64,000 nucleotides of DNA from assembly GCF_003862475.1 (NCBI RefSeq), contig NZ_RRCO01000001.1, forward strand, positions 124,001 through 188,000, read 5' to 3'. Every line of letters begins with the position of its first letter. Within the stretch, counting starts at the first letter, position 1. The position numbers and the translations under genes were made by a program. The notes under the pieces were generated by a model. That model saw only the letters and a list, made by a program, of their open reading frames with translations. It had not been told where the DNA came from and made no database searches. Below, one piece after another: positions 1 to 14,767 of this stretch. This stretch comes from Lachnoanaerobaculum gingivalis. Lineage in GTDB: Bacteria; Bacillota; Clostridia; Lachnospirales; Lachnospiraceae.

Positions 1-598
1 CATATACGGACTGTACAAATGATAAATGTATAATTCCGAACATCAGTGATGAAACTATAAGTGCATATTTCGTATTCACTCTTTTTTCAAGGAAATTAAA
101 AGTTACTCCTCTATATATAATCTCCTCATTGATAGGTGCAAGAATTCCTGCAACCACCAGACTTATAATAAATGATACAGTTGATTTATTTGCTGATGAT
201 GCATTCAAATACTCCAGACTGCTCTTTATAAAACCTATATTTGACAGTGCCGTGTTTTTTAATAACATTACCCATAATGTAGATATACCTCCAAAGGCTA
301 TACCTGCCATTATGCTACACACCACTCCTGTCTTTATATCCCAATGTACTTGTGCTTCCTTCTTATCCCTATTTATCCATTTAAAGAATATAATTGAATA
401 TACAAGAATTGATAAAGGATAAATCACCAGATAAATCCTATCCATCTCCTGTGGCAGAGTCAGCCAGTCAAGTATGGCACTTCCGGTCTTATTATAGGCA
501 AAACCTAAACTGATTATCACAAGATCCGTAATTACAAAAAATATAAATCCCAGTAAAACAGCTATAAATGTAGCCCATGCAATCTTTAGTATTTTCAT
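1..598 (-). CDS. CPBP family intramembrane protease, C-terminus beyond window
   Basis: About 199 residues are visible before the reading frame runs off the window start. The protein is hydrophobic with several membrane segments. It carries the CPBP (Abi/CAAX-protease-like) signature EEIIYRG, the catalytic Glu-Glu...Arg motif, followed by the FGIIHLSF histidine motif. Members are membrane-embedded glutamic proteases that process prenylated or peptide substrates. The actual substrate here is unknown. The start is ATG at 598 after a GGGGGAAG ribosome site, 10 bases after the CXXC gene, so it looks like the last visible gene of that operon. The piece FVQSVY after the histidine motif is shared with the second CPBP protein at 27123-27962, so the two are probably paralogues. 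Confidence 0.85.
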   Translation of the reverse strand, partial: MKILKIAWATFIAVLLGFIFFVITDLVIISLGFAYNKTGSAILDWLTLPQEMDRIYLVIYPLSILVYSIIFFKWINRDKKEAQVHWDIKTGVVCSIMAGIAFGGISTLWVMLLKNTALSNIGFIKSSLEYLNASSANKSTVSFIISLVVAGILAPINEEIIYRGVTFNFLEKRVNTKYALIVSSLMFGIIHLSFVQSVY

Positions 599-607
599 TT
601 CTTCCCC

Positions 608-769
608 CTATCCTATGCCTATACACTCAAGGCATATATTAACAGCTTTTTTTAATACCACCAGATGTTCATCTCTCATTACACCTGCAATAATCATTAC
701 CACACCTACTCCCAGCATAATATAAGGAAGTGCTTTATTCTTTTCCAACTTTTTTAAAATCTTTTTCAT
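608..769 (-). CDS. CD1871A-like small CXXC-motif membrane protein (53 aa)
   Basis: This short gene encodes a lysine-rich start, one hydrophobic segment (about residues 14-31) and a C-terminal CLECIGIG, a CXXC-type pair of cysteines. That architecture matches the CD1871A family of CXXC membrane peptides, often found beside membrane 4Fe-4S proteins as here. The pair of cysteines could bind a metal or act in thiol redox chemistry, which is inference. It starts 4 bases after the kinase gene ends and stops 9 bases before the CPBP gene, so it is clearly part of that operon. Assignment rests on size, the C-terminal motif and context. Confidence 0.8.
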   Translation of the reverse strand: MKKILKKLEKNKALPYIMLGVGVVMIIAGVMRDEHLVVLKKAVNICLECIGIG

Positions 770-773
770 ATTT

Positions 774-1850
774 TCATCCTTTAAAATCTATTATAAACTC
801 TACAAAATCACCATCTACGCTGTTTGCGCTTATTCTGAATTTATGTCTGTCCAATATTTCCTTTACTATGGCAAGACCAAGACCGCTTCCACCGAATTTT
901 TTAGCTCTGGACTTATCCACGCAGTAAAAAGCTTCAAATATCTTTTCAAGACTCTCTTTAGGAATACTTTCTCCATGATTTTTTATACTTAATGAATTGT
1001 CTCCAAGCTTTATTTCTATAAATGCATTTTCCCATGAATACCTTATAGCATTATGCACTATATTAAAGATAGCCTGTTTTATCAAAACTCTATCAGCATC
1101 TATAGTCATATTTTTATTATCACAAGTAAACTCTATATTCTGATTTTTTTCTTTGATTTTATAATCTAAATCCTCGATTATCTCATTTATAATTTTATAC
1201 AAATAAACCTTTTCAATATTTAAGCTCTCTTCATTACTTAAAAGCCTAAGTCCCACTACTATCGAGTTCATCATCTCGATCTGTCTGCCCACAACTTCTA
1301 CAAAGTCTTTATAATCCTCTATCTCCGGCTCTTCATCCAGATTTAATACCTCCAGGTTTGCCCTTATGGCTGCTACGGGAGTCTTTAATTCATGGGCAGC
1401 ATTTTGCGAAAACCTTTTTTGCCTTTCATAGGATTCCCTTATATTCCCAAGCATATGGTTGAAGGCATTTTGCAGATCACCCAATTCATCAGTGCTTTTT
1501 ACTATATGTATATCATCATTTATTTTAGTGATATCAAGCTTTTTTATTTCTCTGCTGAATTTATTGAGCGGCATCAAAACCTTACCTACCACCCACCACA
1601 TCAAAGCGGTTCCCGCAACGGAAAATATTATCAATGTATAAAGACTGTTGATTCTAAATACACGCTGTGCAATATCAAAATCAAAAGTAAAGCTCGCATC
1701 ACTGTTAAACGGTATATCCACATTATCGGGTATTATAAAAATATTGGATGCACTTTCTATATTAAACAAGAATAACAACACCGAGATTACACAGAGCACT
1801 GCAGCTGTAAGTAATGTTACCTTTATTCTTATAGACAGTTTATTCCACAT
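774..1850 (-). CDS. Membrane sensor histidine kinase (HAMP, HisKA, HATPase)
   Basis: A 358-aa sensor kinase with two membrane segments bounding a short extracytoplasmic loop of about 60 residues, a HAMP linker, the phospho-acceptor motif AAHELKTPVAAI (His in the HisKA box), an N box and the ATP-lid glycines GGSGLGLAIV. The start at 1850 is chosen because a GAGG ribosome site lies about 10 bases upstream; a longer frame back to 1928 runs inside the 4Fe-4S gene. It overlaps that gene by 11 bases, suggesting translational coupling. No response regulator gene lies next to it, so its partner must be elsewhere. The short sensor loop argues for a membrane or small-ligand signal. Confidence 0.92.
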   Translation of the reverse strand: MWNKLSIRIKVTLLTAAVLCVISVLLFLFNIESASNIFIIPDNVDIPFNSDASFTFDFDIAQRVFRINSLYTLIIFSVAGTALMWWVVGKVLMPLNKFSREIKKLDITKINDDIHIVKSTDELGDLQNAFNHMLGNIRESYERQKRFSQNAAHELKTPVAAIRANLEVLNLDEEPEIEDYKDFVEVVGRQIEMMNSIVVGLRLLSNEESLNIEKVYLYKIINEIIEDLDYKIKEKNQNIEFTCDNKNMTIDADRVLIKQAIFNIVHNAIRYSWENAFIEIKLGDNSLSIKNHGESIPKESLEKIFEAFYCVDKSRAKKFGGSGLGLAIVKEILDRHKFRISANSVDGDFVEFIIDFKG

Positions 1851-2784
1851 TTGCACATCCTCTGCAACCACTCTTACAAGCTTTGACATTAACAGGCTTT
1901 TCTTCTTTTTTCTTTCCAAGACCTGCATATGTCATAACCAAGGCATCATGTCTGCAGGCTGCAGTACATGCACCGCATCTGATACATTCCAAAGAGTTAG
2001 GATTGGCTCTTACATTTATATCCATCTTACATGATCTTTCACATAAGCCGCAGTTTACACATTTATCGGATACAAATTCCATCTTGTAAAATCCTATTTT
2101 ATTAAAGAAGGAATAAAAAGCTCCAAGCGGACATATATATTTACAAAATGGTCTGTACGTAAATATTGATAAAGCTATTATTACTATTAAAATACTTAGT
2201 TTCCAAAAGAATAAAAATCCTATTGTATTTCTAAGTCCTTCATTTTTAGCAAGTAAAGGTAATGCTCCTCCAAGTGTTCCGGCAGGACATATCAGTTTAC
2301 AAAAATACGGTGCTCCAAGCCCGAACTGATTTGTTAAAAACATAGGCAGCAATATTACAAATACTAAAAGTATAAAGAACTTTAGATATCTGAGCGGTCT
2401 GTCAACCTTTTCCGGTATTTTAAACTTCGGGGTAGGTATCTTATATAAAAGATCCTGTACAAAGCCGAAAGGACATAAAAGTCCGCATACCAGTCTGCCA
2501 AATAATGCTCCTATAAGTATCATTATTCCAAGTACATAATAGGATATGCTGAATTTTTTACTTCCTATTACCGCCTGTAATGAGCCAATCGGACAGGAAC
2601 CTACCGCTCCCGGACATGAATAGCAGTTCAGTCCCGGAACACATGCCACTTTTGTATTTCCTGTATATATCCTTCCCTCAAAAAAGCCCTTTAAATTCGC
2701 ATTGGTAGCAAGGCTCGCCAATGCCTGTATAATATTTTTCTTCCTCTCTTGAAGCTTTGTATATTTATTCTCGAAGTATTTCAT
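1840..2784 (-). CDS. Polytopic membrane 4Fe-4S binding protein (NapH/NosR-like)
   Basis: A 314-aa electron-transfer protein. Cysteine clusters appear in the order CYSCPGAVGSCPIG near residue 55, CGLLCPFG, CKLICPAG and CKYICPLG next to membrane segments, then two ferredoxin-type clusters CVNCGLCERSC and CIRCGACTAAC, and a C-terminal CKSGCRGC. This matches the NapH/NosR/CcgA-like membrane ferredoxin family, which moves electrons between the membrane and redox partners. The CXXC peptide and sensor kinase downstream suggest a redox-sensing or thiol-reducing unit, which is inference. It is the first gene of the operon. The extra cysteine-rich tail after the ferredoxin domain is a notable feature. 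Confidence 0.9.
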   Translation of the reverse strand: MKYFENKYTKLQERKKNIIQALASLATNANLKGFFEGRIYTGNTKVACVPGLNCYSCPGAVGSCPIGSLQAVIGSKKFSISYYVLGIMILIGALFGRLVCGLLCPFGFVQDLLYKIPTPKFKIPEKVDRPLRYLKFFILLVFVILLPMFLTNQFGLGAPYFCKLICPAGTLGGALPLLAKNEGLRNTIGFLFFWKLSILIVIIALSIFTYRPFCKYICPLGAFYSFFNKIGFYKMEFVSDKCVNCGLCERSCKMDINVRANPNSLECIRCGACTAACRHDALVMTYAGLGKKKEEKPVNVKACKSGCRGCANVE

Positions 2785-2860
2785 TTTTTGTCTCCTACAA
2801 ATTTTCTTTTGTATATATTATCATGTTTTCGGTTAAGATAAAGTAAATTTTTTTCAATAA

Positions 2861-2902
2861 AAATAACTCTATCGAAATTAGCTTCATCCGATAGAGCTAT
2901 TT
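2861..2902 (-). terminator. Rho-independent terminator below the defence island
   Basis: A stem of 14 pairs with one mismatch (CTCTATCG against CGATAGAG at its core) has a 14-base loop. On the minus strand it is followed by TTATTTTTATTG. It would end transcription coming from the methyltransferase remnant and gajB before the Fe-S operon. Confidence 0.75.
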
Positions 2903-2921
2903 GAGTTTGTTTTATGATTTC

Positions 2922-3351
2922 TTATTCTTCGTCTGTTTTTTTATTATATGATTTACCGTCATATGCAACTTTGCCTAGACTGACCATAAATTTGCCAGGG
3001 TTTATTTTTGCTTTTTTATTTTGAACCTTTTTAGAGTCACCATCTTACCAATTACATAATTTATATCGCTCTTTAATGTACTACCTTTTTGAATGTTGCT
3101 TAAACCATCTCCCCTAAGTATCATATTTGTAGCAGTTAAAGTGTACATTTGTTCATTTAGTTCAACTACTAAAAGTCTTTTTTTCTCCATTTTTTTTGTT
3201 TTGCCCTTGTTTTATCTTTCCCATACTTATTTTCATCACTTGCTATCATAAGTTCCATGCCGCTAATAATAAAACCTACACTGTCTGTAGTGAAATAATT
3301 TAGGAATATCAATGGTCGTAGATATAATTTTTTTTTATCACTTAAATGCAT
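2922..3351 (-). pseudogene. Shattered gene, probably an N6-adenine methyltransferase remnant
   Basis: Three overlapping reading frames on the minus strand look like pieces of decayed coding sequence. The middle piece (3002-3190) contains EQMYTLTATNMILRGDG followed by SNIQKGS, which resembles the conserved stretch between the SAM-binding and catalytic motifs of N-6 DNA methylases of HsdM type. The last piece ends MVSLGKVAYDGKSYNKKTDEE just before the terminator at 2861-2902, as a normal gene end would. The first piece (3169-3351) ends in a lysine-rich string and is not recognised. Frameshifts link the pieces. It differs in type from the HsdM fragment at 7486-8202. Assignment is based on one short motif. 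Confidence 0.5.
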
Positions 3352-3368
3352 CTATTCTATAATATAAT

Positions 3369-5231
3369 TTAATACTCTATTTTTTTTACAATCCCAGTAT
3401 CCTTAAACAATTCGTAAAACTCATTAATGCAATCATGCTTCTGTATACTTGAAAATTGTGTTGGTCTATTTGAGCTAAATGTAAAATCAATTCTTCTTTT
3501 TGCTCTTGATAATGCAACAAAAAATGTACATCTATCCTCATCAGGTTGATTTTTAAAATTCCAAAATGCCGAATCCTCTAATCCAACAAAAAATATAGTA
3601 TCGTATTCAAGTCCCTTACTTTTATGAATTGTCATTATTGGGATTGAATTTTTTCCTTCAAAGTTATCAATAGCTTTAATCCAATCTTTAGTCTCATCAT
3701 ATTCAATCCATACTAACCTTTTAAACTGTTCTACCAAATTATCAAAATAGTCTCTAGATTTGTATTGTTGAAACTTTGATGCAAATTTTTCATATGAAAT
3801 ATATTTAATTGTATAATCAACTAAATCCGAGAATTGTTCTTCATAAGTAATATTTAATTTTTTCTTAGTATCATTAATCATTAATTCAACTTTTCTAATA
3901 AAATCTTTTATTATTTGAGGGTTACAACTTTCATCTATTCCGTCTAATTCGCATAGTATATCGTAAATATAATCCCAGTCATCTGGCATACCATCCTTTG
4001 ATGCCAACCTAAAGAGTGAAACCAATATCTTTATTACGTCTTCTTTCAATAAATCCTGATATACTGCTTCATTGCGTGCCTTAATATTATGTTGGGCAAG
4101 TTTATCAATAATCTCTTGTGAATAAACATCGACCATCTGCTTTACTATTATACAAATTTCATTAATTTTTATACCAGTTGATATTAAACTATCAATTTCC
4201 TCACTTAGTACATCAGCTTCTTTTATATAATCTTCAAAAAGTCTTAAATAAGCTTCTCCATCTTCTTGATTCCATTTTTCATTAGTTTTTAAGTCAATTA
4301 TGTCTTCATTCAAGCTGTTATACATAGCTTTTTGTATCTCTACGAGTCTTGGTGCTGAGCGATGATTCATCATTAATGTTCTTTTTTGACTTAAAAAATC
4401 ATTTTGAAAATCTGAAAATATTGACTTTCTAGCGCCAGCCCATAACATTATTCGTTGTTTGCTATCCCCTACAGCAGTAATTATTGTCCCTGTTTGAAAA
4501 AAACAAGTTTTAACAAGATCATATTGAATTGATGTAGTATCTTGAAACTCATCTAAAAACACATGACTATAAGTCATTTCAATCGCTTTCTTAATATACC
4601 TATTCGTTCTAATCAAATACTCTGCTAAACGTGATATCATCTCAAAAGTAAGTGAACTTTCAAAATTATCATTTCTACTGCCTTTAAGTAATATATTCCA
4701 AGTACAAATGAAAATTTCAGCTATACAATCTGTAGATAAAGGCAATATATTTGCTGAAAGTATATTACCCACTCTATTAAATTCAGTTTGATTTTCTCCG
4801 AAGTTCAATCCAGCTATCTCAAATGCTCTCTTAATATCTTTAGTTTCAGCTATTTTGTAGTTATTTAATGGTCTATATGATTCATCTAAACTATTTTTAA
4901 ATCTATCTACAATTTCTTTGGCAAATGCATCATAGGTCTTTGATTCAAACCTTAAAGATAATTCTTTCCCACATCTCAATTCAACACGTTCTCTTAAATT
5001 GTCAGCTGCGTCCTTTTTAAAACTAATAGCAAGAATTTTTTTAGGATATCTACATGTATTAGTCTCTAGTAAAAAGCATGCTCTCTGAGCTAATAATTCT
5101 GTTTTTCCAGCTCCAGGACCAGCTACAACAAGTGTATTTTTATCATTAACAACCGTATCCATAGCCTCAGCTTCTAATCTAAATCCATCAGCTGGACACC
5201 ATTCTTCCTTGTCGACCCAATTTCTATTCAT
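3369..5231 (-). CDS. gajB: UvrD/PcrA-like SF1 helicase, Gabija GajB
   Basis: A 620-aa superfamily 1A helicase-like protein. Visible motifs are Walker A AGPGAGKT (residues 37-44), DEFQD (motif II), GDSKQRIMLWAGA (motif III), MTIHKSKGLEYD (motif V) and VALSRAKRR (motif VI). In Gabija, GajB senses DNA ends or nucleotides and works with the GajA nuclease against phage. The start is ATG at 5231; its ribosome site AGGAG overlaps the gajA stop and only 4 bases separate the genes, so the pair is coupled. It is longer than the roughly 500 residues usual for GajB, with extra sequence between motifs III and V. A plain UvrD-type helicase is possible, but adjacency to an OLD-family ATPase makes Gabija the best call. 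Confidence 0.85.
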   Translation of the reverse strand: MNRNWVDKEEWCPADGFRLEAEAMDTVVNDKNTLVVAGPGAGKTELLAQRACFLLETNTCRYPKKILAISFKKDAADNLRERVELRCGKELSLRFESKTYDAFAKEIVDRFKNSLDESYRPLNNYKIAETKDIKRAFEIAGLNFGENQTEFNRVGNILSANILPLSTDCIAEIFICTWNILLKGSRNDNFESSLTFEMISRLAEYLIRTNRYIKKAIEMTYSHVFLDEFQDTTSIQYDLVKTCFFQTGTIITAVGDSKQRIMLWAGARKSIFSDFQNDFLSQKRTLMMNHRSAPRLVEIQKAMYNSLNEDIIDLKTNEKWNQEDGEAYLRLFEDYIKEADVLSEEIDSLISTGIKINEICIIVKQMVDVYSQEIIDKLAQHNIKARNEAVYQDLLKEDVIKILVSLFRLASKDGMPDDWDYIYDILCELDGIDESCNPQIIKDFIRKVELMINDTKKKLNITYEEQFSDLVDYTIKYISYEKFASKFQQYKSRDYFDNLVEQFKRLVWIEYDETKDWIKAIDNFEGKNSIPIMTIHKSKGLEYDTIFFVGLEDSAFWNFKNQPDEDRCTFFVALSRAKRRIDFTFSSNRPTQFSSIQKHDCINEFYELFKDTGIVKKIEY

Positions 5232-5235
5232 AATC

Positions 5236-7293
5236 TTAGTCTCCTAAATTATCTTTAATCTTTTCAATAACACGACTTACAAAATCTTTTAGACAGTCTG
5301 GAAAACTTTCAAAATCTATGTTAGTACTATTAGAAAATAAAGATAAATGAGTGGTTGGTTTACCTCTTCCTAAAAAGAAATATGAATACCATATCATAAG
5401 TTCTTTCTCTTTCTCAGTATAAGTAGATCCATCTCCACCTTCTTGTTTTAACGTCAATTTAATATCACTATCTATTCTAGCTTTATAAGCTGTTTTTAGT
5501 TCATCTTCAGTAGCTTCGTTAATAACAATATCTTGTATTCTTCCATGACCTTTTATCCTAGGACCCTCACTACTGGTTAATACTGAAATATATTCATCTT
5601 TAAAACTTTGTAACATTGTAAAATCTATATCTAACGGAGTTGAAAAATAAACATCATAACTTTTTAGACGTTCAATCCATCCCAACATAATGTTAGTTTC
5701 AGCTACATCCCAAGTATGCATATTTTCTAATTTTTCATCTGATAGAGTTCCTTCACTTGTGCTAAGCAATGAATTTTTGTCATAACCAATCTTGATTAAT
5801 TGTTGTATTGCATACTTTATGCGTCCCCAACCACCTCCGTCTCGTTCTCTATCTAAATCAAGCAAAGTAATAAATGGAATTTCTAAATCATTTAATAAAC
5901 GCCAAAAATGATTAACATGTCTACCACCTAATGGGACTATTGAAATTTCTGATGAGTCTACAGATTCCTTTTTTAATTCAATCATTTTCTTAATAATAAT
6001 CTCTTCACTGTCACCTTCGCCCAATACAACAAGTTTCGCAAAATAAAGTTCTGGATATGCTAATACTGCTTCTTTTACAAATTTAAATTGATCCGCTTCA
6101 TTTTCTTCGTCTGGTAATATAATTGAATTCACCTTTGTACATTCATGTTCCTTACAAATTCTAAAATATCTTATATTTGTTGGTTCAACTCTCTTTACTA
6201 TCGCTGGTGAATGTGATGTCAATATTGTCTGCGAATTTTCTTTTGTAGAAATAAGTTTTAACTTTTCAACTACTCTTCCTAAAAGTTGAGGTGAAATATG
6301 ATTTTCTGGTTCTTCAACTGCAACAATTGTTAATACAGGTGGTACTAATGTAAATATATCTTCTTCTTTACCTTCATTAATAGATTCTAGAATTTCTTCT
6401 TCAATTTCTAAAAATGTATTTACAAGTGATAGATAAAATAAAGAACGTAAACCATCCCCAAGTTCTTCCACACGATAATCTCGATGTGTCCCTGTAGGTG
6501 AAAATGTAACTTCAACTTTATTTAAAATTGTCTCTAAATTAGTACTATTGAAATTAATTTTGGGACTAGAATATCTAATATCCCTATGATAACTATTCCA
6601 TTGATTTTCTAGCGATTTCTTTAATAATTCAACCCCTTTTTCTTCAAAGAAAATTTTCTCCGTTTCACTTACTTTCATTTTGATTTTTTCCTTTGTTTGT
6701 TCTGACCAACTTATACCATTTAATAATCTTGAAATTATTGTTCCTGAAACATTTTTTAATTGTTCATCCGGCTTCCTAATAGCAGGTACATAAATCATCT
6801 TTATTTGATCAAGATCATGTCTTCTGACATTACGCTTATCTTCAATACTTATTTCTTTTGTTGATGATGTTATATAATATATGTTTGTATCAATACTTCC
6901 TTCAGGATTTGAGCTTTTTTCCCAATTTGCTTCAAGTCTAATCCTTAAATAAGGCTTTCCGCTTGGGTCACTAACCAACATATTTTTGAAAAATATTGGT
7001 ACAGATGCATTGTCTTTTCCTCTATCCAATTCGGGAAACATAAATTGTGCTTCAATATATAATTCACTATTATTAACACTATCGGGGTCAATACTTTCAG
7101 GTATATGAAAATCTGATCTTTCAATAATTCTATCACTGGATTTTTCTCCAAATAGTTTCATAAGTGCACTTAATAAAGCAGTTTTACCACTGCTATTACG
7201 ACCTATAAATCCTGTTAAATTATTAATTTCAATATTTGTAGGTTCTTTTCCGAAGCATCTATAGTTACTAAGAATTATTTTTGTCAGTTGCAT
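5236..7293 (-). CDS. gajA: OLD-family ATPase-TOPRIM endonuclease, Gabija GajA
   Basis: A 685-aa ABC-type ATPase joined to a TOPRIM nuclease. Visible are Walker A GRNSSGKT (residues 31-38), a signature-like LGDGLRS, Walker B AVEEPENH, a switch histidine in TSHSPAIV, then TOPRIM motifs VVLGEGDSEE and LLDLDRE. This is the class 2 OLD arrangement found next to a UvrD-like helicase, that is Gabija anti-phage defence, where GajA nicks DNA when nucleotides are depleted. The start at 7293 follows GGAGG by 9 bases; the frame extends 24 bases further upstream without a ribosome site. About 150 residues follow the TOPRIM motifs, making it longer than the best-known GajA (about 580 residues). Confidence 0.88.
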   Translation of the reverse strand: MQLTKIILSNYRCFGKEPTNIEINNLTGFIGRNSSGKTALLSALMKLFGEKSSDRIIERSDFHIPESIDPDSVNNSELYIEAQFMFPELDRGKDNASVPIFFKNMLVSDPSGKPYLRIRLEANWEKSSNPEGSIDTNIYYITSSTKEISIEDKRNVRRHDLDQIKMIYVPAIRKPDEQLKNVSGTIISRLLNGISWSEQTKEKIKMKVSETEKIFFEEKGVELLKKSLENQWNSYHRDIRYSSPKINFNSTNLETILNKVEVTFSPTGTHRDYRVEELGDGLRSLFYLSLVNTFLEIEEEILESINEGKEEDIFTLVPPVLTIVAVEEPENHISPQLLGRVVEKLKLISTKENSQTILTSHSPAIVKRVEPTNIRYFRICKEHECTKVNSIILPDEENEADQFKFVKEAVLAYPELYFAKLVVLGEGDSEEIIIKKMIELKKESVDSSEISIVPLGGRHVNHFWRLLNDLEIPFITLLDLDRERDGGGWGRIKYAIQQLIKIGYDKNSLLSTSEGTLSDEKLENMHTWDVAETNIMLGWIERLKSYDVYFSTPLDIDFTMLQSFKDEYISVLTSSEGPRIKGHGRIQDIVINEATEDELKTAYKARIDSDIKLTLKQEGGDGSTYTEKEKELMIWYSYFFLGRGKPTTHLSLFSNSTNIDFESFPDCLKDFVSRVIEKIKDNLGD

Positions 7294-7485
7294 AATATTT
7301 TTCCTCCACAATCTCAATGATTCCTTTTAATACTATATTTTTCCTTTATGTGGATATACTGTTTACAACATTTATTTGCGTAATGACTACTATAAACGGC
7401 ACACCAACTCTTCATTTTTCTGGTTTTAAACTTTGGCTAATCTCTAAAAACTCTGTGTTTACTCGACTATTTGCCTATGTCATTA

Positions 7486-8202
7486 TTATGTCACTAGACC
7501 ACAGGCATGATCATATACCTTGTTAATTTCAGTCTTTCCAACTGTGCCAAGCCTTGTACGTAGCTCTGAGACATCCGCAGGTGTAAAGAATTCTCCACCG
7601 GACTTACCTGCATTTGATGCATATATTGTCATAATGTATTCATAGGTATCTCCAAAGGCATCAATATAATGTTTTTTTACATATCCAAGATTCATACCGG
7701 CAAAACCATCAAGAAGCTTGCAAAGTTTTTCATTCCTCTTTGCTACTGTTGAACCAAGCTTATTAATGTTTACATCAAAGTCATTGAACAAAAATGCAAA
7801 GTCAGATTCCGATTCACTTCCCTTTGCTGATTCTTCAATATGACGAAATACATTCTCAAGAGTTTCATTAAGATTTTCATCATCTTTGGCTTTTGCTCTG
7901 ACATTACAAAACAGCTCTGACGGCAAAATAAAGAATCTTTTTTCTTCAACAAGCTTCTGTCTGGCTTCTTCTGCTTCAGTGTCATCCATCTTTGCATAAT
8001 CAAAGTATGTGTTCCCTGCTTCAATTTCTCCTACATTAATACAATCCGTTATATTTTCAGAAATATATCTATAAAACATAGTGCCAAGTACATAATTCAT
8101 AAAATTCCAACCATCTACTGCACCTCTAAGTTCATCCGCAATTACCCATATTGCACGATGAAGTTCATCACGTTCCTGCTCTTTCTTATTATCTATAGCC
8201 AT
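7486..8202 (-). pseudogene. hsdM: Truncated type I restriction-modification methyltransferase HsdM
   Basis: 238 residues match the N-terminal half of HsdM: the helical domain beginning ELHRAIWVIADELRG and then SGGEFFTPADVSEL leading into the SAM-binding motif. Where intact HsdM reads DPACGSGS, this one reads DHACG followed by LVT and a stop, so motif I is broken and the catalytic NPPF region is absent. The start is ATG at 8202 after AGGAGAGG and its upstream region looks normal. Matching hsdM 3' sequence, hsdS and hsdR are not in the window. The gene is dead as a methyltransferase; the Gabija pair begins about 190 bases beyond the break. Confidence 0.88.
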
Positions 8203-8526
8203 CGCTATTTATCCTCTCCTGCATTAACCTAGCTACATATAAATAAGATAAACGGTGAAAACAACTCATATTATTTTAATTATTTATAAAACACTGCATT
8301 ATTATACCATATATACTTTATAACTCCTATGTATACAACCAACATAATCTTTAACATCCACTAAAAAGCGGGTTGAAGATCAACCCACCACACATTTCAC
8401 AAATAAACTATTTTATAGAGCATCTAAAGTCATCTGCTTTTGAAACTCCTCGACCTTGTCTGCTTTTAAAGCTATGCTTACGAGTGACTCTATCATCATA
8501 AGGAACAATAGATTTATAAACTTTTC
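8203..8526. other. Intergenic stretch with gene-end remnant
   Basis: No intact gene is seen. It holds a terminator at 8360-8386. A short open frame (8413-8499, minus strand, 28 codons, beginning MMIES and ending MTLDAL) lies in the same frame as the upstream antitoxin gene after its stop. It could be a chance frame or the tail of a lost neighbour. The last part, next to hsdM, is AT-rich and would hold the hsdM promoter. Confidence 0.4.
8360..8386 (-). terminator. Rho-independent terminator after antitoxin gene
   Basis: A perfect 7-bp stem GGGTTGA/TCAACCC with a 3-base loop is followed on the minus strand by GCTTTTTAG. It would terminate transcripts of the 8527-9024 gene. Confidence 0.65.
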
Positions 8527-9024
8527 CTATCTTTCAACATCCTCATAATCTTCAAATTCATCCAGATACATATCCCATATATGGTCATAAGGCCTAACCT
8601 TTTTGGCATCATTTTCGATATCCTCCAAAGATAGTTTGTTGTATCCGTTTTCAGATGTACTCAAACCTTTGCGTGCATTTTTCCATGAAGTCTCATCATG
8701 TGAAAGTTTGCTAAGTTTCCATGATGCCAGCTCTCCATACTGTGCTATCACATTAGAAACAATGTATATATCTTTATCCGATATATTTTCCGTTTCTTTG
8801 GAAATAATTTCTCCATCAAAAAAACTCTTTCGAACTGCAACACAGACCGGACCGTAACGCCATCCTTCAAATTCATCAATGAAAAGTGGCTCCCCTGTAA
8901 TTGCAAAACTTTCTCGCTGTGAAAAATAAAGCAGCTTGTGCAATTTCATTTCGTCAATTGCTTCACCTGACATTTTGCGATATTCGTCGCAAATATATCG
9001 TGCAACATTAATCGCTCTTTCCAT
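8527..9024 (-). CDS. SocA/Panacea-type antitoxin-like protein (DUF4065)
   Basis: A 165-aa soluble protein with the Panacea/DUF4065 pattern: N-terminal NVARYICDEY, then KLHKLLYFSQRESFAITGEPLF, then FEGWRYGPVCVAVRKSF. Family members include the proteolytic adaptor antitoxin SocA and many antitoxins with diverse toxins. No toxin gene is adjacent on either side, so it may be an orphan or act on a target elsewhere. The start is ATG at 9024 with a GGAGG site upstream. A promoter (9122-9150) and a folded leader (9039-9095) precede it. It lies at the edge of the defence island with the broken hsdM and Gabija genes. Confidence 0.8.
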   Translation of the reverse strand: MERAINVARYICDEYRKMSGEAIDEMKLHKLLYFSQRESFAITGEPLFIDEFEGWRYGPVCVAVRKSFFDGEIISKETENISDKDIYIVSNVIAQYGELASWKLSKLSHDETSWKNARKGLSTSENGYNKLSLEDIENDAKKVRPYDHIWDMYLDEFEDYEDVER

Positions 9025-9038
9025 AGTTTTTCCTCCAT

Positions 9039-9095
9039 TCTTTTCTTGTGAAATCTGCCATATAAAATGGCACCAATAAAAATAGCAAGAAAAGA
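9039..9095 (-). promoter_or_regulatory. Nested inverted repeat in antitoxin-gene leader
   Basis: A perfect 10-bp repeat, TCTTTTCTTG (9039-9048) against CAAGAAAAGA (9086-9095), encloses a second stem TGCCAT/ATGGCA (9056-9061, 9067-9072). It lies between the predicted promoter and the ribosome site of the SocA-like gene, so it would form a hairpin in the leader RNA, or bind a dimeric protein as DNA. Confidence 0.6.
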
Positions 9096-9121
9096 CTTAT
9101 CTATGAACATATGATATCACA

Positions 9122-9150
9122 ATTGTAGCCTTTTATATGTTAAATTTCAA
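9122..9150 (-). promoter_or_regulatory. Sigma-A type promoter for antitoxin-like gene
   Basis: On the minus strand TTGAAA (-35) and TACAAT (-10) are separated by 17 bases. The implied start near 9115 leaves a leader of about 90 bases containing the nested inverted repeat. Confidence 0.6.
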
Positions 9151-9180
9151 TGAATTTTAATATGTGGAATTATCATCCCC

Positions 9181-10134
9181 TTATTCGATTAACTCCGGCT
9201 GACCTTTTTTTATTTTAAATTTCTGCTCCTCTATATTCACATTGTTTTTTTTATCAATACTGATTCTTAGCATAAGCCCCTCATCAGTGCCCTTTGGTAT
9301 CTGCTTATCAAATATGCAATTACCCAGACTGTAATAAATATATTTGTTTTTATAAACCTCGCTCTCCTGTATTACATGAGGATGGGCTCCCACCACAAAG
9401 TCGGCACCATTATTTATGGCATATCTTGCAAGATCTTTTTGCATCTTGCTTGCAAATCGTTCATATTCAATTCCCCAGTGAAAATATACAATTTTAAAAT
9501 CAGCTTTCATATTTTCAAGTTCAGCTTTTATTTTTTCGGATTTATTTCCGTCATAATCTAAAAGATAATTTATATTGGCTTTGTCCGCATTATATACAAA
9601 GCCCTCCGGCGGAAATATGCTGTATGCCAAAACCCCCAGCCGAAAGCCGTTCTTTTCAAAAATATAGCTCATATCCTCTCCGACTCTTTCACCGGCTCCC
9701 ACATATGAGATGCCGGCTCTTGCCAGTCCATCCATGGTATCTTTTAAACCCTCGGATCTATAGTCCATTGTATGATTATTTGCCAGGTCACAGAGGTCTA
9801 TACCCGCTTTTTTCATGGCTTTTGCATTGTCGGCTGAGGCTTTAAACACAAAGCGACTCGCCTTATTGGCTCCACGGCTGTATTCGGTAATAGGACATTC
9901 AAGGTTAACTATCGTAAGATCATCCTCTAAGAAAATATCTTTCATATTCTCATAGAGATAATCATACCCACTCTTTTTTATATAGCTGTCCACCCCTCTT
10001 GAAAGCATAATATCACCGACAATTGTAAGTTCTATACTTTCATTTTTTTTGCTTCGAAAACAGCAGACAGCTATACCTGATACGGACATTATAATTAAAA
10101 TCAATATAAAAATATTTTTTTTATTTTTTAACAT
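9181..10134 (-). CDS. CapA-family metallophosphatase-like exported protein
   Basis: A 317-aa protein of the CapA/PGA_cap family. An N-terminal hydrophobic segment (about residues 7-25, ending AVCC) would anchor or export it. Family motifs are TIVGDIMLSRGV near the start, NLECPIT, LANNHTMDY and VGAHPHVIQ, the likely metal-binding residues of a calcineurin-like fold. CapA proteins take part in poly-gamma-glutamate capsule synthesis, but many clostridial homologues lie outside capsule operons, as here, and their substrate is unknown. It overlaps the DUF3160 gene by 7 bases, so the two are probably co-expressed. Confidence 0.85.
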   Translation of the reverse strand: MLKNKKNIFILILIIMSVSGIAVCCFRSKKNESIELTIVGDIMLSRGVDSYIKKSGYDYLYENMKDIFLEDDLTIVNLECPITEYSRGANKASRFVFKASADNAKAMKKAGIDLCDLANNHTMDYRSEGLKDTMDGLARAGISYVGAGERVGEDMSYIFEKNGFRLGVLAYSIFPPEGFVYNADKANINYLLDYDGNKSEKIKAELENMKADFKIVYFHWGIEYERFASKMQKDLARYAINNGADFVVGAHPHVIQESEVYKNKYIYYSLGNCIFDKQIPKGTDEGLMLRISIDKKNNVNIEEQKFKIKKGQPELIE

Positions 10135-12311
10135 CCTGAACTGTAAGGAACTTCAGGAGTTATTATCTCCTCTCCCTCCTCCTCTTGCATATAATCTTCT
10201 ACAAACAGAGGTCTCTTGGGCGGTCTTTTAACCATATTCTGCCATGCCTCATCCGTCAGTCTTTCATTACCTATAAATTCAAAATAATCAAACACTGCAC
10301 CTCTTGTCAAATACAGCTTGCCCTCTATAGGTACAGCAACATATATTTCAGCGGCATTTCCTACACCTACTTCAAGATATCCCATACCGCCGCTTGTATT
10401 TGCAGAATGAATATCCGCTATCTGTGCCATATTCTTATCTGTATCGGACTCTATCTGATACCAGTCTTGAGCCTCTGCAATACTGCTGCTTAAATACTCA
10501 AGTGTTCCTCCATATGTCATTAAGGTATCATTCTCTTCATATGTAAGACTTTCTCCCTTAAGTTCCTTTATAGAGCATTTCTTTAAAAATTCCAGCAATT
10601 CAATTATATTTTCACATTTTTCTTTCATACTGTCACTTATTCCGTTTCTTTGTGACAGTCCTTCCATAGTTTGCTTTGTAAGCCATATAAGTCTGTTATA
10701 AAATTCAGGGTTAGGCTCCACATATCCTGTAACTTTTGGCGGCTCCTCTTCCTCTCCTCCACATTCCACACTGCTTTGGGCACCGTATAATATGGTATCA
10801 TGTCTAAGTTCCGCCCAGCTTCCCAGTGCTGTGGCAAGTGATTTGCTCTCCCATGCCTTATTCCTCATAAAGTTCGGATAACCCTCAGGGAATCTCTGAT
10901 TTAAACTCTCAAGACTGTAAAGCCATGTGGTATATATATTACCCGTCTTATCCTTAATGCTTCTTTCATCAAATTCGGATTTTACCTCATTGTATTCTTT
11001 TTTATAACCATCCCATTCCTTTGAAGGATTATAAAGTGAATCCAATAACTCCTCCGCTCTTTGAGAGCCGAATACAGCCATAACATCAAGTCCGCTCGGG
11101 AAAGGTCTTTTTTCATTTGATAGTCTGCTTAAAATTTCCGAATCCGGTATATATCTTTGTCCCATAAATCTAAAGCATAAGCCTATAGAACTGTTCTTTA
11201 TCTTTGCCTGACCTACTTTATCAAGCTCGGCATAAAGCTTATCCATACCTCCCGCTATATCTTTAGTCTCAGGCATTTCTCCATAAGCAGCCTTTACTAT
11301 AGCTCCAAACTCCATCGGATTTATATCATTGGTACTTCCTACAAAGAACTCTGTGATTGTATATATATCTTCCCACAGATCCATTCCTTTTTCCTTTGGC
11401 AACTCCTCCAGCGCCTCGGTGGCAATGATTGACATATAGGCTCCGTCTTCATTTCTTTTGCCTACTGAATCGGATAAAATAAAGGGTACAACGCCATACA
11501 TACTCATAGCACCGAAATACGCCTTTAATTCATCACTTCTTGTATAATGTCCCCTAACTTTAAACAAACTGTAGTCAACATCCGTACCGGTGATTGAAGA
11601 CAAAGTTTTGCTCTCCGCCTTTACATTTGCATAATCCTCTTCTACAAGTGTTTTTATTTCATCCGGCAAACTGCTGTCTTCGCCCAAAAGCTTTTCACAT
11701 AGGGCAAAATATGCCAAGGTCTTTCCTACAAGTTCTTTATCCTTCTGATTTTTGGTATCCTGATATTTTTGATTTAAAATATTCACCATATTTTTATTCA
11801 GCTCTTTAAGTTCTATATAAAGCTTTTCAACCTCCGTCTGCCTGAGAGTATAATCATAAAAAATATGATAGAGCTGTAAAACGGAATCTGTGGTTATAAA
11901 ACTCGGTATTCTATTATATGTATTTGCCTCATATATATAAAACAACTGTTGGCTGTCCGTAGGATTTACAACAAAACCGTTTTTTTCAATCATTTCCTTT
12001 TGCACATCATTAAGATTCCCGAATTGATTCAGATTTTCAATATTTGAAAGAGAGCTCTGTATCTTAATATCAGGAACATTCGCCTCTATTTCAAGTGGAG
12101 TGTACTCTCCGTTTGCGGAATAAAACTCCTTTGGCTTTGGCAATTCATAGCCAAGATTTTTTGCTGTAATCGTATTATTTTTCTTATCACTATCAACGCT
12201 CTGAGTTTTTTCATCCTTATCATTATTATGTACCTTTATATCGATACTGTATCTGCAGGAAGTTAAAATCAATATAAAAATTATCATTATTGACAAAAAT
12301 CGTTTTTTCAT
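10128..12311 (-). CDS. DUF3160 domain lipoprotein
   Basis: A 727-aa exported protein. The N-terminus has a signal with lipobox LTSC, so it is likely a surface lipoprotein. The rest matches the large DUF3160 family in its alpha-helical, Tyr- and Glu-rich character, with IYEANTYNRIPSFITTDSV early and AEIYVAVPIEGKLYLTRGA late. The function of the family is not known. It overlaps the CapA-like gene downstream by 7 bases and follows the FG-GAP lipoprotein gene by 33 bases, giving a three-gene surface-protein operon. Confidence 0.8.
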   Translation of the reverse strand: MKKRFLSIMIIFILILTSCRYSIDIKVHNNDKDEKTQSVDSDKKNNTITAKNLGYELPKPKEFYSANGEYTPLEIEANVPDIKIQSSLSNIENLNQFGNLNDVQKEMIEKNGFVVNPTDSQQLFYIYEANTYNRIPSFITTDSVLQLYHIFYDYTLRQTEVEKLYIELKELNKNMVNILNQKYQDTKNQKDKELVGKTLAYFALCEKLLGEDSSLPDEIKTLVEEDYANVKAESKTLSSITGTDVDYSLFKVRGHYTRSDELKAYFGAMSMYGVVPFILSDSVGKRNEDGAYMSIIATEALEELPKEKGMDLWEDIYTITEFFVGSTNDINPMEFGAIVKAAYGEMPETKDIAGGMDKLYAELDKVGQAKIKNSSIGLCFRFMGQRYIPDSEILSRLSNEKRPFPSGLDVMAVFGSQRAEELLDSLYNPSKEWDGYKKEYNEVKSEFDERSIKDKTGNIYTTWLYSLESLNQRFPEGYPNFMRNKAWESKSLATALGSWAELRHDTILYGAQSSVECGGEEEEPPKVTGYVEPNPEFYNRLIWLTKQTMEGLSQRNGISDSMKEKCENIIELLEFLKKCSIKELKGESLTYEENDTLMTYGGTLEYLSSSIAEAQDWYQIESDTDKNMAQIADIHSANTSGGMGYLEVGVGNAAEIYVAVPIEGKLYLTRGAVFDYFEFIGNERLTDEAWQNMVKRPPKRPLFVEDYMQEEEGEEIITPEVPYSSGC

Positions 12312-12344
12312 AAATTTATCCCCTTTTTTATATTTTTTGCCTCT

Positions 12345-13070
12345 TTATTCCAACAATATACTTTTGTTTACTATTTTCACCTCTCTTTCCTTTCCGTCCG
12401 CTATAATCTTTATTCCATACTTATTATTATCAAAATTTATTTTTTTAAATTCTTCACTGCCCTGAATAAACAGGTTAAATCCGAAACCTTCCCATTTATA
12501 TACCGACAAAATTCTGTTTTTATTTTCAAGTTCTTCTATCGCTATAAGCTCCGCTATACCGTCTTTATCGATATCATCAAGAATAATATCATCAAATGGT
12601 CTTGACAGTCTTGAACCAAGCCAAAGCGGTATCAGTTTTTGTGAATCAAAATTATAGAAAAAAGGTCTTTTAGCCAATGCATTGTGAAACTTTACCTTTT
12701 TATACATTATAATATTTATATCAGCTCTTTTATCGCCGTCCACATCACCAAGCTGCACCTTTGAAGGCTTCATATTTGTAAAATCAAAGCTGTAATCCGG
12801 CTTTTCCCCCAATACTACCTTGCCGTCCAATAATTTAAAATCTCTGTATATTTCTATAAATTTGCCATACGGCTCTCCGCTTGGCAACCTCTTTCTTTCT
12901 CCACCGTCATTTATTGCTATAAGTTCATCAGCACCGTCAAGGTCTATATCTCCGATGCTGTATGAAATAATATCTTTATTTGATATATTTGATGATTCCG
13001 TTTTCTTACAGGATGAAAGCATAAAAAGCATCAAAATAAATACAACTGTTTTTATTATACAATCTCCCAT
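12345..13070 (-). CDS. FG-GAP/VCBS-repeat lipoprotein
   Basis: A 241-aa protein with a signal sequence and lipobox LSSC. It contains three calcium-binding-like repeats of the form GDIDLDGADELIAI, GDVDGDKRADINII and DDIDKDGIAELIAI, characteristic of FG-GAP/VCBS beta-propeller blades. Three blades are too few for a full propeller, so it may dimerise or be a reduced version. The start at 13070 follows AAGGGG. It appears to head the operon with the DUF3160 and CapA-like genes. Its role is unknown; extracellular binding is a reasonable guess. Confidence 0.75.
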   Translation of the reverse strand: MGDCIIKTVVFILMLFMLSSCKKTESSNISNKDIISYSIGDIDLDGADELIAINDGGERKRLPSGEPYGKFIEIYRDFKLLDGKVVLGEKPDYSFDFTNMKPSKVQLGDVDGDKRADINIIMYKKVKFHNALAKRPFFYNFDSQKLIPLWLGSRLSRPFDDIILDDIDKDGIAELIAIEELENKNRILSVYKWEGFGFNLFIQGSEEFKKINFDNNKYGIKIIADGKEREVKIVNKSILLE

Positions 13071-13129
13071 ATATTCCCCTTACGAACTCTTAATATACCA
13101 TTATTATAATTGCTGTAATGATTTTTTAC

Positions 13130-13158
13130 AACAAAAACAGGCTCCCAATGGGAGCCTG
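13130..13158 (-). terminator. Terminator of RNase P RNA gene
   Basis: An inverted repeat CAGGCTCCC/GGGAGCCTG (13138-13158) with a 3-base loop is followed on the minus strand by GTTTTTGT. It immediately follows the 3' end of rnpB. Confidence 0.85.
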
Positions 13159-13159
13159 A

Positions 13160-13470
13160 GCAAAACATAAGCCGGGTTATGTATTAAACGGTCATCTATC
13201 TGGTCCTTATGTTACCACAAGGCTCTAGCAACCTACCTGAATTTCGGACGGGCCGCCCTATTCGCTTCGGTCTTGCTTTGGATGGGGTTTACACTGTCCC
13301 CATATGTTACCATATGAGCGGTAGTCTCTTACACCACCTTTTCACCCTTACCTTTCGGCGGTTATTTTCTGTTGCACTTTCCTTGGAGTCACCTCCACCG
13401 GATGTTATCCGGCATCCTGCCCTATAAAGCCCGGACTTTCCTCACATTTGTGCGACCGTCTGTTTTACTA
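13160..13470 (-). ncRNA. rnpB: RNase P RNA
   Basis: This is the catalytic RNA of ribonuclease P, which trims the 5' ends of tRNA precursors. On the minus strand the conserved 5' block GAGGAAAGTCCGGGC and the matching 3' block ending ACCCGGCTTATG are present. Between them are other conserved pieces, including GGTAAGGGTGAAAAGGTG and AGATAGATGACCG. The 5' end is placed near 13470, about 7 bases after a TAAAGT -10 box; the 3' end is just before the terminator. Ends are accurate to about 5 bases. No protein is encoded here. Confidence 0.95.
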
Positions 13471-13476
13471 AAAGAT

Positions 13477-13505
13477 ACTTTAACATCCAAAAAAAGATTT
13501 GGCAA
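13477..13505 (-). promoter_or_regulatory. Promoter of RNase P RNA
   Basis: On the minus strand TTGCCA and TAAAGT are spaced by 17 bases. They lie just below the tmcAL stop and place the RNA start close to the expected rnpB 5' end. Confidence 0.55.
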
Positions 13506-13513
13506 GGTAAAAA

Positions 13514-14767
13514 TTATACCATAACCACATTCCTTCTGTACGGATTACAAAGCTTTTCACCATATTTTTCAAAGTAAATCGAATTATATAAAAAATCGGC
13601 ATAAATATTGTTTTCAAATATTTTAAGACTTACAGGACTTAATATATACTTGGCATTACTTATCTTACTGATTATTGGAAGCTCACTTCTCTTTTTCAGC
13701 TCTGATAAAAGCTCGCTTGCCTCTTTTTTGAAACCTAAAAGAAGAGGATAGGCGGCCATATTTTTCTCCGACTTTATATCTTCCAACATATTTTTTTTAT
13801 GATTTAAAAGCAAATGAAATATAGCTCTGCTTATTCTTGTATAAGTAAAATTCTTACTCTTCAGTTTTAATATAAAATCGCTGTAGCTCTTATTTTCAAG
13901 TTCAAATATATTTTTTTCTACAGTATTGGCAAGTTCTTTTGAAACATCACAATATGCTGAGAGATCTTCACCCTTACCTAGCTTTTCCAGTATACTTCTT
14001 TGAACAGTAAATAAAAAATCATCATCAAATATCGACTTGCTGTTTTTAAACAGATTAATATTTTTATCCGGTATGGCTGATTTAATGCTGTCGTTAAATA
14101 TATCAAAGTTTGATTCGCTTACAAGTCTCCTTATAGCTGTAGCAGATGAAAACTTGTTTTCTTCTATCTCCTTTTCATGATAACCGCTGCCGCTTCTGCT
14201 GATTATAACAGGCTTTATAGCTACATTATTAATTCTTATACTTTTTAAATACTCTATTGCAAGTATATTGTTCGGAGAAGCCAGTAATTTTTTTATTTCA
14301 TTTATATCTTCTTTACTTTCTTTAAGTTCCTCAAGTATTGCATTATGCCTTGCTTTGGCATAGTTAAGACCGGCTTCCATATGTTTTTTTACTGCAAGCT
14401 CCTGCTCTTTATCTGTCAAAACTTTGGCAACAGTATCCAGAAGTTTATAATTATCATTTTCCGCACCGAATGATATAAAGTCTGCTCCGAGTATTTTTAA
14501 AAGGCTTATTCCATATCCTGCAAAATCATTTGCACTTGCTGTGCTAAATAGAGCCGGAATTTCAAAAACCGCATCAATTCCGGCATTTAACGCCATCTTT
14601 GTTCTTATGCTTTTATCAAATATAGCCGGTGCTCCTCTTTGTACATAATTTCCGCTCATAATTGCGATTATGTAATCGGCGCCTGAAATTTCTTTAGCTT
14701 TTTTTATTTGATACTCATGTCCTTTGTGGAAAGGATTATATTCCGCAATAATCCCCAATATCTTCAT
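13514..14767 (-). CDS. tmcAL: tRNA(Met) cytidine acetate ligase
   Basis: A 417-aa protein of the YlbM/TmcAL family. It uses ATP and acetate to form N4-acetylcytidine at the wobble position of elongator tRNA-Met. The nucleotidyltransferase motif is IIAEYNPFHKGHEYQ near the start, with the HxGH-type signature, followed by MSGNYVQRGAPAIFDKSIR, which is typical of the family. The C-terminal half is helical and lysine-rich. The start is ATG at 14767, two bases after dapB ends, so it is in the ilvA-clc-dapA-dapB run. Confidence 0.93.
   Translation of the reverse strand: MKILGIIAEYNPFHKGHEYQIKKAKEISGADYIIAIMSGNYVQRGAPAIFDKSIRTKMALNAGIDAVFEIPALFSTASANDFAGYGISLLKILGADFISFGAENDNYKLLDTVAKVLTDKEQELAVKKHMEAGLNYAKARHNAILEELKESKEDINEIKKLLASPNNILAIEYLKSIRINNVAIKPVIISRSGSGYHEKEIEENKFSSATAIRRLVSESNFDIFNDSIKSAIPDKNINLFKNSKSIFDDDFLFTVQRSILEKLGKGEDLSAYCDVSKELANTVEKNIFELENKSYSDFILKLKSKNFTYTRISRAIFHLLLNHKKNMLEDIKSEKNMAAYPLLLGFKKEASELLSELKKRSELPIISKISNAKYILSPVSLKIFENNIYADFLYNSIYFEKYGEKLCNPYRRNVVMV

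Follow-up and report, generated by a model that had tools for sequence, protein, structure and literature searches.

A complete Gabija pair beside a broken hsdM gene

The DNA analysed here (the window) is a stretch of 64,000 nucleotides (nt) from Lachnoanaerobaculum gingivalis (assembly GCF_003862475.1, contig NZ_RRCO01000001.1, positions 124,001-188,000 of the forward strand), in which the Gabija defence genes gajA and gajB lie between a truncated hsdM gene, joined to the left end of an integrative conjugative element (ICE), and what looks like the debris of a second DNA methyltransferase gene (Table 1). An earlier reading, made from the letters of this DNA (the sequence-only reading), had described an OLD ATPase-TOPRIM gene and a UvrD-like helicase gene coupled by 4 bases and had called them Gabija. 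Both genes are as described: Pfam detects AAA_15 and OLD-like_TOPRIM in the first product, both above cut-off, and UvrD-helicase and UvrD_C in the second, the spacer of 4 bases is found at 5232-5235, and neither frame holds an internal stop, the open reading frame (ORF) tool placing the start of gajA at an upstream TTG (7317). The name Gabija was likewise upheld by PADLOC, whose models match nearly full-length, with 866 bits for GajA (PDLC00090; protein residues 1-681, profile positions 1-656 of 659) and 738 bits for GajB (PDLC00103; residues 5-615, positions 3-607 of 612).

The TOPRIM residues of GajA, the loss of which had been named as a reason to abandon the assignment, are in place. Counted along a residue alignment with the solved chains 8wy4 and 8jq9, E426, G456, D479 and D481 correspond to E379, G409, D432 and D434 of Bacillus cereus GajA, described as its active site (PMC10781630). 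In an alignment of nine GajA sequences, the window's included, E426, D479 and D481 are invariant, as is the pattern D-x-D-x-x-R-x-x-G-G-x-G-R at 479-491, and G456 is replaced by alanine in two plasmid relatives. The Walker A motif of GajA reads GRNSSGKT (residues 31-38), and the Walker A motif (A-G-P-G-x-G-K-T) and DEFQD of GajB are invariant in all eight aligned sequences, again with the window's own. Therefore, given the AAA_15 and TOPRIM domains, the active-site residues, the PADLOC matches and the coupled helicase gene, the two genes are assigned to a Gabija system that is, as judged from its sequence, complete and intact. Characterised Gabija is described as a GajA-GajB complex with a TOPRIM nuclease (PMC10781630), and the Pseudomonas system as preferring linear DNA that has been injected and to which RecBCD is denied access (PMC12407980). 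By analogy, the two products would form one 4:4 complex of GajA and GajB attacking injected phage DNA by the TOPRIM nuclease, with the activity of GajB coupled to it; this function is carried over from the characterised systems to the longer Gabija lineage discussed below.

An ICE end at the point where hsdM is cut

The broken hsdM gene pointed out by the sequence-only reading proved to be an N-terminal piece, matching positions 1-232 of 515 of TIGR00497 (a protein of ~515 amino acids, aa) and positions 3-56 of 311 of PF02384 (N6_Mtase), so that the full N6-methyltransferase domain is missing. Relatives occur in 16 of 200 genomes of the family at E 1e-40, its own included. Eleven of the 15 non-self matches were examined, and all eleven match only to residue 235, with identities of 68-81% in ten and 65% in the last (L046); the open frames of these relatives are 528-551 aa long in nine cases, 360 aa in L041 and 298 aa in L046. 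At the DNA level the homology stops at 7498-7499. No C-terminal hsdM homology was found in window positions 1-10200, and a search of the genome with a full-length relative (L037) retrieved only the truncated gene and two distant genes on other contigs (28% and 32% identical). In this state hsdM is dead, for the window lacks its catalytic half and neither half is repeated elsewhere in the genome as a close match. The two distant relatives, of the N6 type, lie at G000:C7:200353-201837 and G000:C6:278029-278961 in open frames of 511 and 675 codons.

Directly at the stop of the hsdM homology (7498) lies an ICE end, which matches over ~160 bases (E about 4e-42) the same block in a distant genome of the family (L060), where it precedes a KilA-N gene that, by eye, is broken. 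Compared with other copies, the junction with hsdM has one base fewer and some changes, and therefore the hsdM frame closes at once. About 50 bases separate the last recognisable ICE base from the start of gajA. The ICE-end homology stops at 7342 and the Gabija homology begins at 7349. A plus-strand ORF (7317-7526) largely overlaps the ICE end. Three plasmid records contain the block, the best being a composite-ICE record of Streptococcus agalactiae strain R31 (CP138365), in which it connects the start of a snf2-type methyltransferase gene to a KilA-N/PcfB/type IV secretion backbone; two genes annotated as recombinases and the remainder of the SNF2 gene follow ~50 kb further on. In S. agalactiae SagR31, mating showed that a Tn1806-like ICE inserts into hsdM, snf2 and a gene for an Eco57I-type methylase (PMC12942858), and CP138365 looks like a product of that work. 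The ICE in the window would thus be Tn1806-like: it shares with such elements, which carry a triple serine integrase, and by way of CP138365, the left-end sequence and a methyltransferase gene split at GG, but keeps one end only, as integrase, right end and conjugation genes were not found.

Table 1. Features of the Gabija locus, in window positions
Feature	Position	Strand	Remarks
Hairpin with T-rich tail	2858-2912	minus	marks the island's far edge; noticed by eye and absent from the terminator scan
Decayed 3' part of another N-6 DNA methyltransferase gene	3059-3288	minus	two frames; starts no more than about three residues from motif I
Gabija cassette as a DNA unit	3355-7349	minus	87.7% identical to positions 11945-7934 of the Clostridioides difficile locus L032 (blastn)
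gajB	3369-5231	minus	UvrD-like superfamily 1 helicase, 620 aa, intact
gajA	5236-7293	minus	OLD-type ABC ATPase-TOPRIM nuclease, 685 aa from ATG, intact
ICE left end (putatively Tn1806-like), decayed	7342-7500	minus	83% identical to the same end elsewhere
hsdM' (5' part)	7486-8202	minus	238 aa, with 235 codons recognisable; catalytic half missing after the cut in motif I (YDHACG)
Terminator-like hairpin	8367-8389	minus	belongs to the older toxin-antitoxin operon; marks the island's right edge by comparison with G004

The landing-site signature of the ICE

The ICE end was searched in 391 genomes of the class (E 1e-3) and in viral contigs by pattern; the three plasmids and the loci L060 and L061 were used as well. 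It was matched in 22 of the 391 genomes, the window's own included, at 29 places, 14 of which besides that in the window hold the start of the block, and the viral contigs gave five blocks. Before the junctions were compared by blast, seven loci were set aside as repeats of the window, of L060 or of L061. Of the blast rows, 20 that lacked the start of the ICE end were discarded, and 26 others were merged into 22 distinct junctions. Thus, the same end is joined to 22 distinct other sites, in several families and on plasmids; one block (L062, 29 bases) was too short to use.

The sequences entering these junctions have a common signature. GAY stands exactly 15 nt before the ICE junction in 20 of 22 cases, whereas in the window it stands at that distance before 132 of 4611 GG pairs; the full GAY-N9-GG is present in 19 of the 22 junctions; GAY is missing in L085 and L088, and L081 has GAY with TGG in the place of GG. 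The signature translates as D-x-x-x-G, for instance YDPACG, VCDPAVG, ILDPACG, YDPTMG, YDPTSG, CDPAMG, VLDSFLG and YLDFFAG, a shape that we take to be motif I of DNA methyltransferases. Sixteen of the 22 junction genes were compared with Pfam, the other six being too short. Nine belong to DNA-methyltransferase families (one of them, L065, at 20.0 bits, just under its cut-off of 20.4): the seven N6_Mtase (PF02384) genes all end at profile position 55-56 of 311, where hsdM' ends at 56, and both N6_N4_Mtase (PF01555) genes end at 191 of 221. The remainder comprises one snf2-type gene, for which Pfam gives only DUF7149/DUF7814 and which is typed by the annotation of its far half and the published target, two other proteins and four genes without a family. 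In the window, hsdM passes into the ICE end at the GG of its motif I codons and is thereby cut in two.

Beside these methyltransferase genes, the ICE end also lies in a phage tail protein gene, a symporter gene and two genes of unknown type (L107, L108, L109 and L101), all four of which keep the GAY-N9-GG spacing. Since they do so without belonging to a methyltransferase family, it is suggested that the ICE recognises the DNA rather than the gene. The open frame enters the full constant tail (FRVII...) in 13 of the 16 junctions read further, with two shorter tails and one cut by a contig end, and the cut genes (L064, L065, L066, L063, L110, L083, L084, L102 and others) gain the same in-frame ICE tail of ~35 residues.

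Insertion of a serine-integrase ICE into hsdM has been published (PMC4701971), as has ICE insertion into diverse methyltransferase genes at a GGGG repeat, there called low specificity (PMC13006639), and TGGG-GGGA/T repeats are given for the Tn1806-like ICE (PMC12942858). Our narrow literature search met neither GAY-N9-GG nor a motif I reading. GAY-N9-GG is a longer signature than these published repeats and would explain hits on such different methyltransferases.

Behind other copies of the end, two sets of genes deserve mention. At L060 8606-11993 (G206, another genus), a second ICE-end remnant precedes the broken KilA-N gene, behind which lie an AAA gene and a gene of the McrBC family. In Aerococcus tenax (L066, 6169-7752), a protein of 528 aa matching the PADLOC candidate PDC-S60 is encoded directly behind the ICE end.

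Methyltransferase debris on the far side of the pair

The shattered methyltransferase that the sequence-only reading had placed at 2922-3351 is real in part: debris is recognisable at ~3059-3288, and 2922-3001 shows no trustworthy homology. PADLOC type IIG profiles match two short ORFs there (E 1.9e-5 and 5e-9), covering profile positions 416-497 of 721 in two frames. Compared by tblastn with five methyltransferases, one of them itself a fragment, the debris gave E values of 5e-4 to 0.4 in the first frame and 5e-10 to 2e-13 in the second, which are lenient as the search space was only 701 bases. In the four full-length enzymes, the homology starts between one residue before and three residues behind the motif I glycine (start and glycine T388/G389 in Lactobacillus gasseri, T369/G368 in L048, 351/348 in Arthrobacter and 356/353 in Escherichia coli). 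Besides the window's own, no closer parent was found in 392 genomes of the order at E 1e-8, and the 200 family genomes gave one other weak match at E 1e-6. Judged by these alignments, the debris seems to represent the 3' half of another methyltransferase gene that was cut close to motif I.

One other interpretation of the debris was discarded. It does not pair with hsdM' as two halves of one gene, for the HsdM relatives match ~8220-7498 only and the debris matches other N-6 methylases; a stray match of that search, obtained inside gajB with a different ORF of L046 (E 0.098), is at chance level. An ICE right end was looked for near the debris, and the right end of CP138365 has no credible match there.

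Relatives of the Gabija pair and the site in related genomes

The window pair is an added member of the already known Gabija family, and as a defence pair it is ordinary. It resembles the Gabija of B. cereus VD045 in gene order, domain make-up, the TOPRIM E/G/DxD residues and tight gene coupling. In contrast to the solved chains of ~578 and ~494 aa, its proteins are longer (685 and 620 aa), the similarity between the window and solved GajA being weak (E 1.7e-8); after the DxD the former reads DLDRERDGGGWGR, whereas the solved chain reads DNDLKSKKG. The nine long GajA sequences align over most of their length, and the helicase gene stands directly behind gajA in all eight other loci examined, annotated as two genes in the Rhizobium locus (L052). 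The pair belongs to a longer (685/620 aa) Gabija lineage.

Relatives of this kind occur in several settings. Among 72,556 plasmid records, 107 contain a GajA relative at E 1e-5, all below 60% identity; p332A2 (Latilactobacillus sakei) and pl12111-1 (Levilactobacillus brevis) carry a long GajA ~39-41% identical to that of the window with a helicase gene directly 3'. The Ruminiclostridium relative is surrounded by ORFs that read as serine recombinases. Genome contigs were scanned with six short peptides, by which distant relatives are missed, and yielded two GajA relatives from 32 pattern stretches, the nearest in a C. difficile genome; 34 pattern stretches of viral contigs contained no further ones. 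A faecal contig filed as 'Bacteriophage sp.' and marked unverified (L050, MT839996.1, 250-4038) has a related pair with both frames broken, followed, by eye, by a transposase-like fragment and an ATPase-HNH pair, and is perhaps not a phage but a bacterial defence island.

In the nearest relative (C. difficile strain 173070, L032), GajA is 86% and GajB 83% identical to the window proteins, and the DNA homology of the cassette ends 14 bases behind gajB and 56 bases before gajA. The setting differs, as the C. difficile cassette lies behind an RNA m5U-methyltransferase gene (rumA-type, PF05958) and near a gene for a full-length type IIG enzyme. CTn5/CTn7-type elements in C. difficile are described as adjoining a putative RNA methyltransferase gene, some with restriction-modification (RM) genes (PMC3158075), a description that would fit this setting.

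Closer to home, GajA was found in one of the 200 family genomes at E 1e-40, which is the window's own, and in none of the five other genomes of the genus at E 1e-3. An empty site, which the sequence-only reading had proposed to look for in strains without the pair, has a counterpart in relatives of the same genus: in four of these five genomes the flanks are joined without the island, the homology jumping from window position 2857 to 9178 in G002, from 2862 to 13134 in G001 (where more right-side genes are absent), from 2912 to 8410 in G005, and from 2861 to 8363 in G004, with a second gap before 13133; in G003 only the left flank matches. A toxin-antitoxin module occupies the site in G004 and G005, and neither module nor island does in G001 and G002. 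The site thus behaves as a variable locus. The hsdM gene was not broken by Gabija, as the ICE end lies between the two. In the four relatives with both flanks, hsdM' and the methyltransferase debris are both absent, a result that holds for this locus. Given the absence of GajA from the five genus relatives, the four joined flanks and 88% DNA identity to C. difficile, the Gabija cassette looks like a recent arrival.

How the pair came to lie behind the ICE end

We consider it probable that the intact Gabija pair, which occupies the slot of the first gene after the left end of a putatively Tn1806-like and since lost ICE, is retained cargo of this element. The ICE landed in hsdM at the GG of the motif I codons, splitting the gene, and would have carried the Gabija cassette in as cargo or acquired it at this place. 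Loss of its integrases and transfer genes would then have stranded gajAB in the chromosome. If the debris beyond gajB is indeed the 3' half of another methyltransferase gene, the island lies between halves of two different target genes. This would point to recombination between two ICE copies that sat in different methyltransferase genes, or to a rebuilding of the region through deletion; double insertions in hsdM and snf2 are described in two transconjugants (PMC12942858).

Several observations weigh against this history. The name Tn1806-like is based on gene content and the CP138365 record, not on a comparison with Tn1806 itself. In window positions 1-14000, the 6.3 kb left region of the ICE matches only the 160-bp end (next E 0.26), and the right region of CP138365 gives a best match of E 0.004, over 37 bases inside gajA. 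No conjugation module was found in the DNA search with the left region over the same 14000 positions; neither a protein-family search nor a search for the whole module was made. Serine integrase (PF07508) has no match in the window, and the two in the genome lie elsewhere. No Gabija is seen by eye in the first ORFs after the other ICE ends (54 bases to 4.2 kb covered), the C. difficile Gabija locus (18 kb) has no such ICE end, and decay of the left debris prevents its cut point from being placed firmly.

Because no ICE right end, integrase or transfer gene lies beside the pair, and because the C. difficile locus lacks the ICE end, the cassette could postdate the ICE scar. A real, if minority, possibility is therefore that the ICE cut hsdM and decayed to a scar, beside which Gabija settled independently at a later time, through recombination or some unknown transposition, as defence genes gather in variable loci. 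A sharp unit of 4 kb, the cassette recurs in C. difficile without a flanking ICE end there; the plasmid relatives and the Ruminiclostridium one, with its serine-recombinase-like ORFs, lie in different settings, and the G206 remnant near AAA and McrBC-family genes shows that such scars can adjoin unrelated defence genes. Against a later arrival, the Gabija homology starts where the ICE-end homology stops, in the slot of the first backbone or cargo gene of other copies, and no repeat of at least 14 bases brackets the cassette.

The proposal of the sequence-only reading, in which one or two RM loci were entered or partly replaced by Gabija itself, finds some background in lactic acid bacteria, where Gabija is described as often standing beside RM genes (PMC13304284). 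It was not sustained at this locus: the ICE left end of ~160 bp puts ~150 bp of ICE sequence between hsdM' and the cassette, hsdM' ends at the site at which the ICE splits other methyltransferase genes, and the two debris pieces come from different genes, so that we regard it as very improbable. Decayed hsdM genes are common, which speaks for hsdM' being an ordinary frameshifted or deleted pseudogene, with the match to the ICE end due to chance or generic intergenic sequence; this is contradicted by the presence of the block at 22 distinct other junctions, in several families and plasmids, and we give it almost no credence. Retained ICE cargo thus is our preferred account of the pair.

Methyltransferase motif I as a proposed target

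The truncated hsdM is the footprint of a conjugative element aiming at the conserved S-adenosylmethionine-binding motif of DNA methyltransferases, and GAY-N9-GG lets such footprints be found in any genome. Gabija beside RM genes (PMC13304284) and ICE insertion into hsdM (PMC4701971) and diverse methyltransferase genes (PMC13006639) are already published; a narrow literature search, passages of PMC12479173 among it, gave no link of Gabija with this ICE family. The present case raises the question whether such ICEs swap host RM for their own defence genes. As a speculation that we hold to be rather doubtful, this serine-integrase ICE family may use the motif I codons as a near-universal landing site, disarming the resident modification gene and bringing its own defence, in an exchange of immune systems. 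With GAY-N9-GG encoding D-x-x-x-G, many unrelated RM genes would become targets, each cut in the same reading phase and gaining the same ICE tail of ~35 residues; the defence brought along would be Gabija here and might be the McrBC-family gene near such an end in G206. A survey of large serine recombinases reports that their targets are not enriched within or near anti-phage defence genes (PMC10083194), and this lowers the chances of an immune exchange; its Pfam enrichment counted only recombinases outside the multi-targeting clade.

Edges of the island

At the far edge of the island, the hairpin with the T-rich tail is kept in the island-free G005 and is missing from G001-G004; in G005 it may be the scar of an island lost there. 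At the other edge, L028 matches window positions 8363-8457. Beyond it, within 8410-9024, a SocA/Panacea antitoxin gene (9024-8527, minus strand) stands without its partner, as an orphan antitoxin. In G005 and G004, the SocA/Panacea gene is followed by a gene of 121-122 aa, which in one genome weakly resembles PemK/MazF, under the Pfam cut-off, and in the other has no such match; in the window, only short ends of this partner gene are left.

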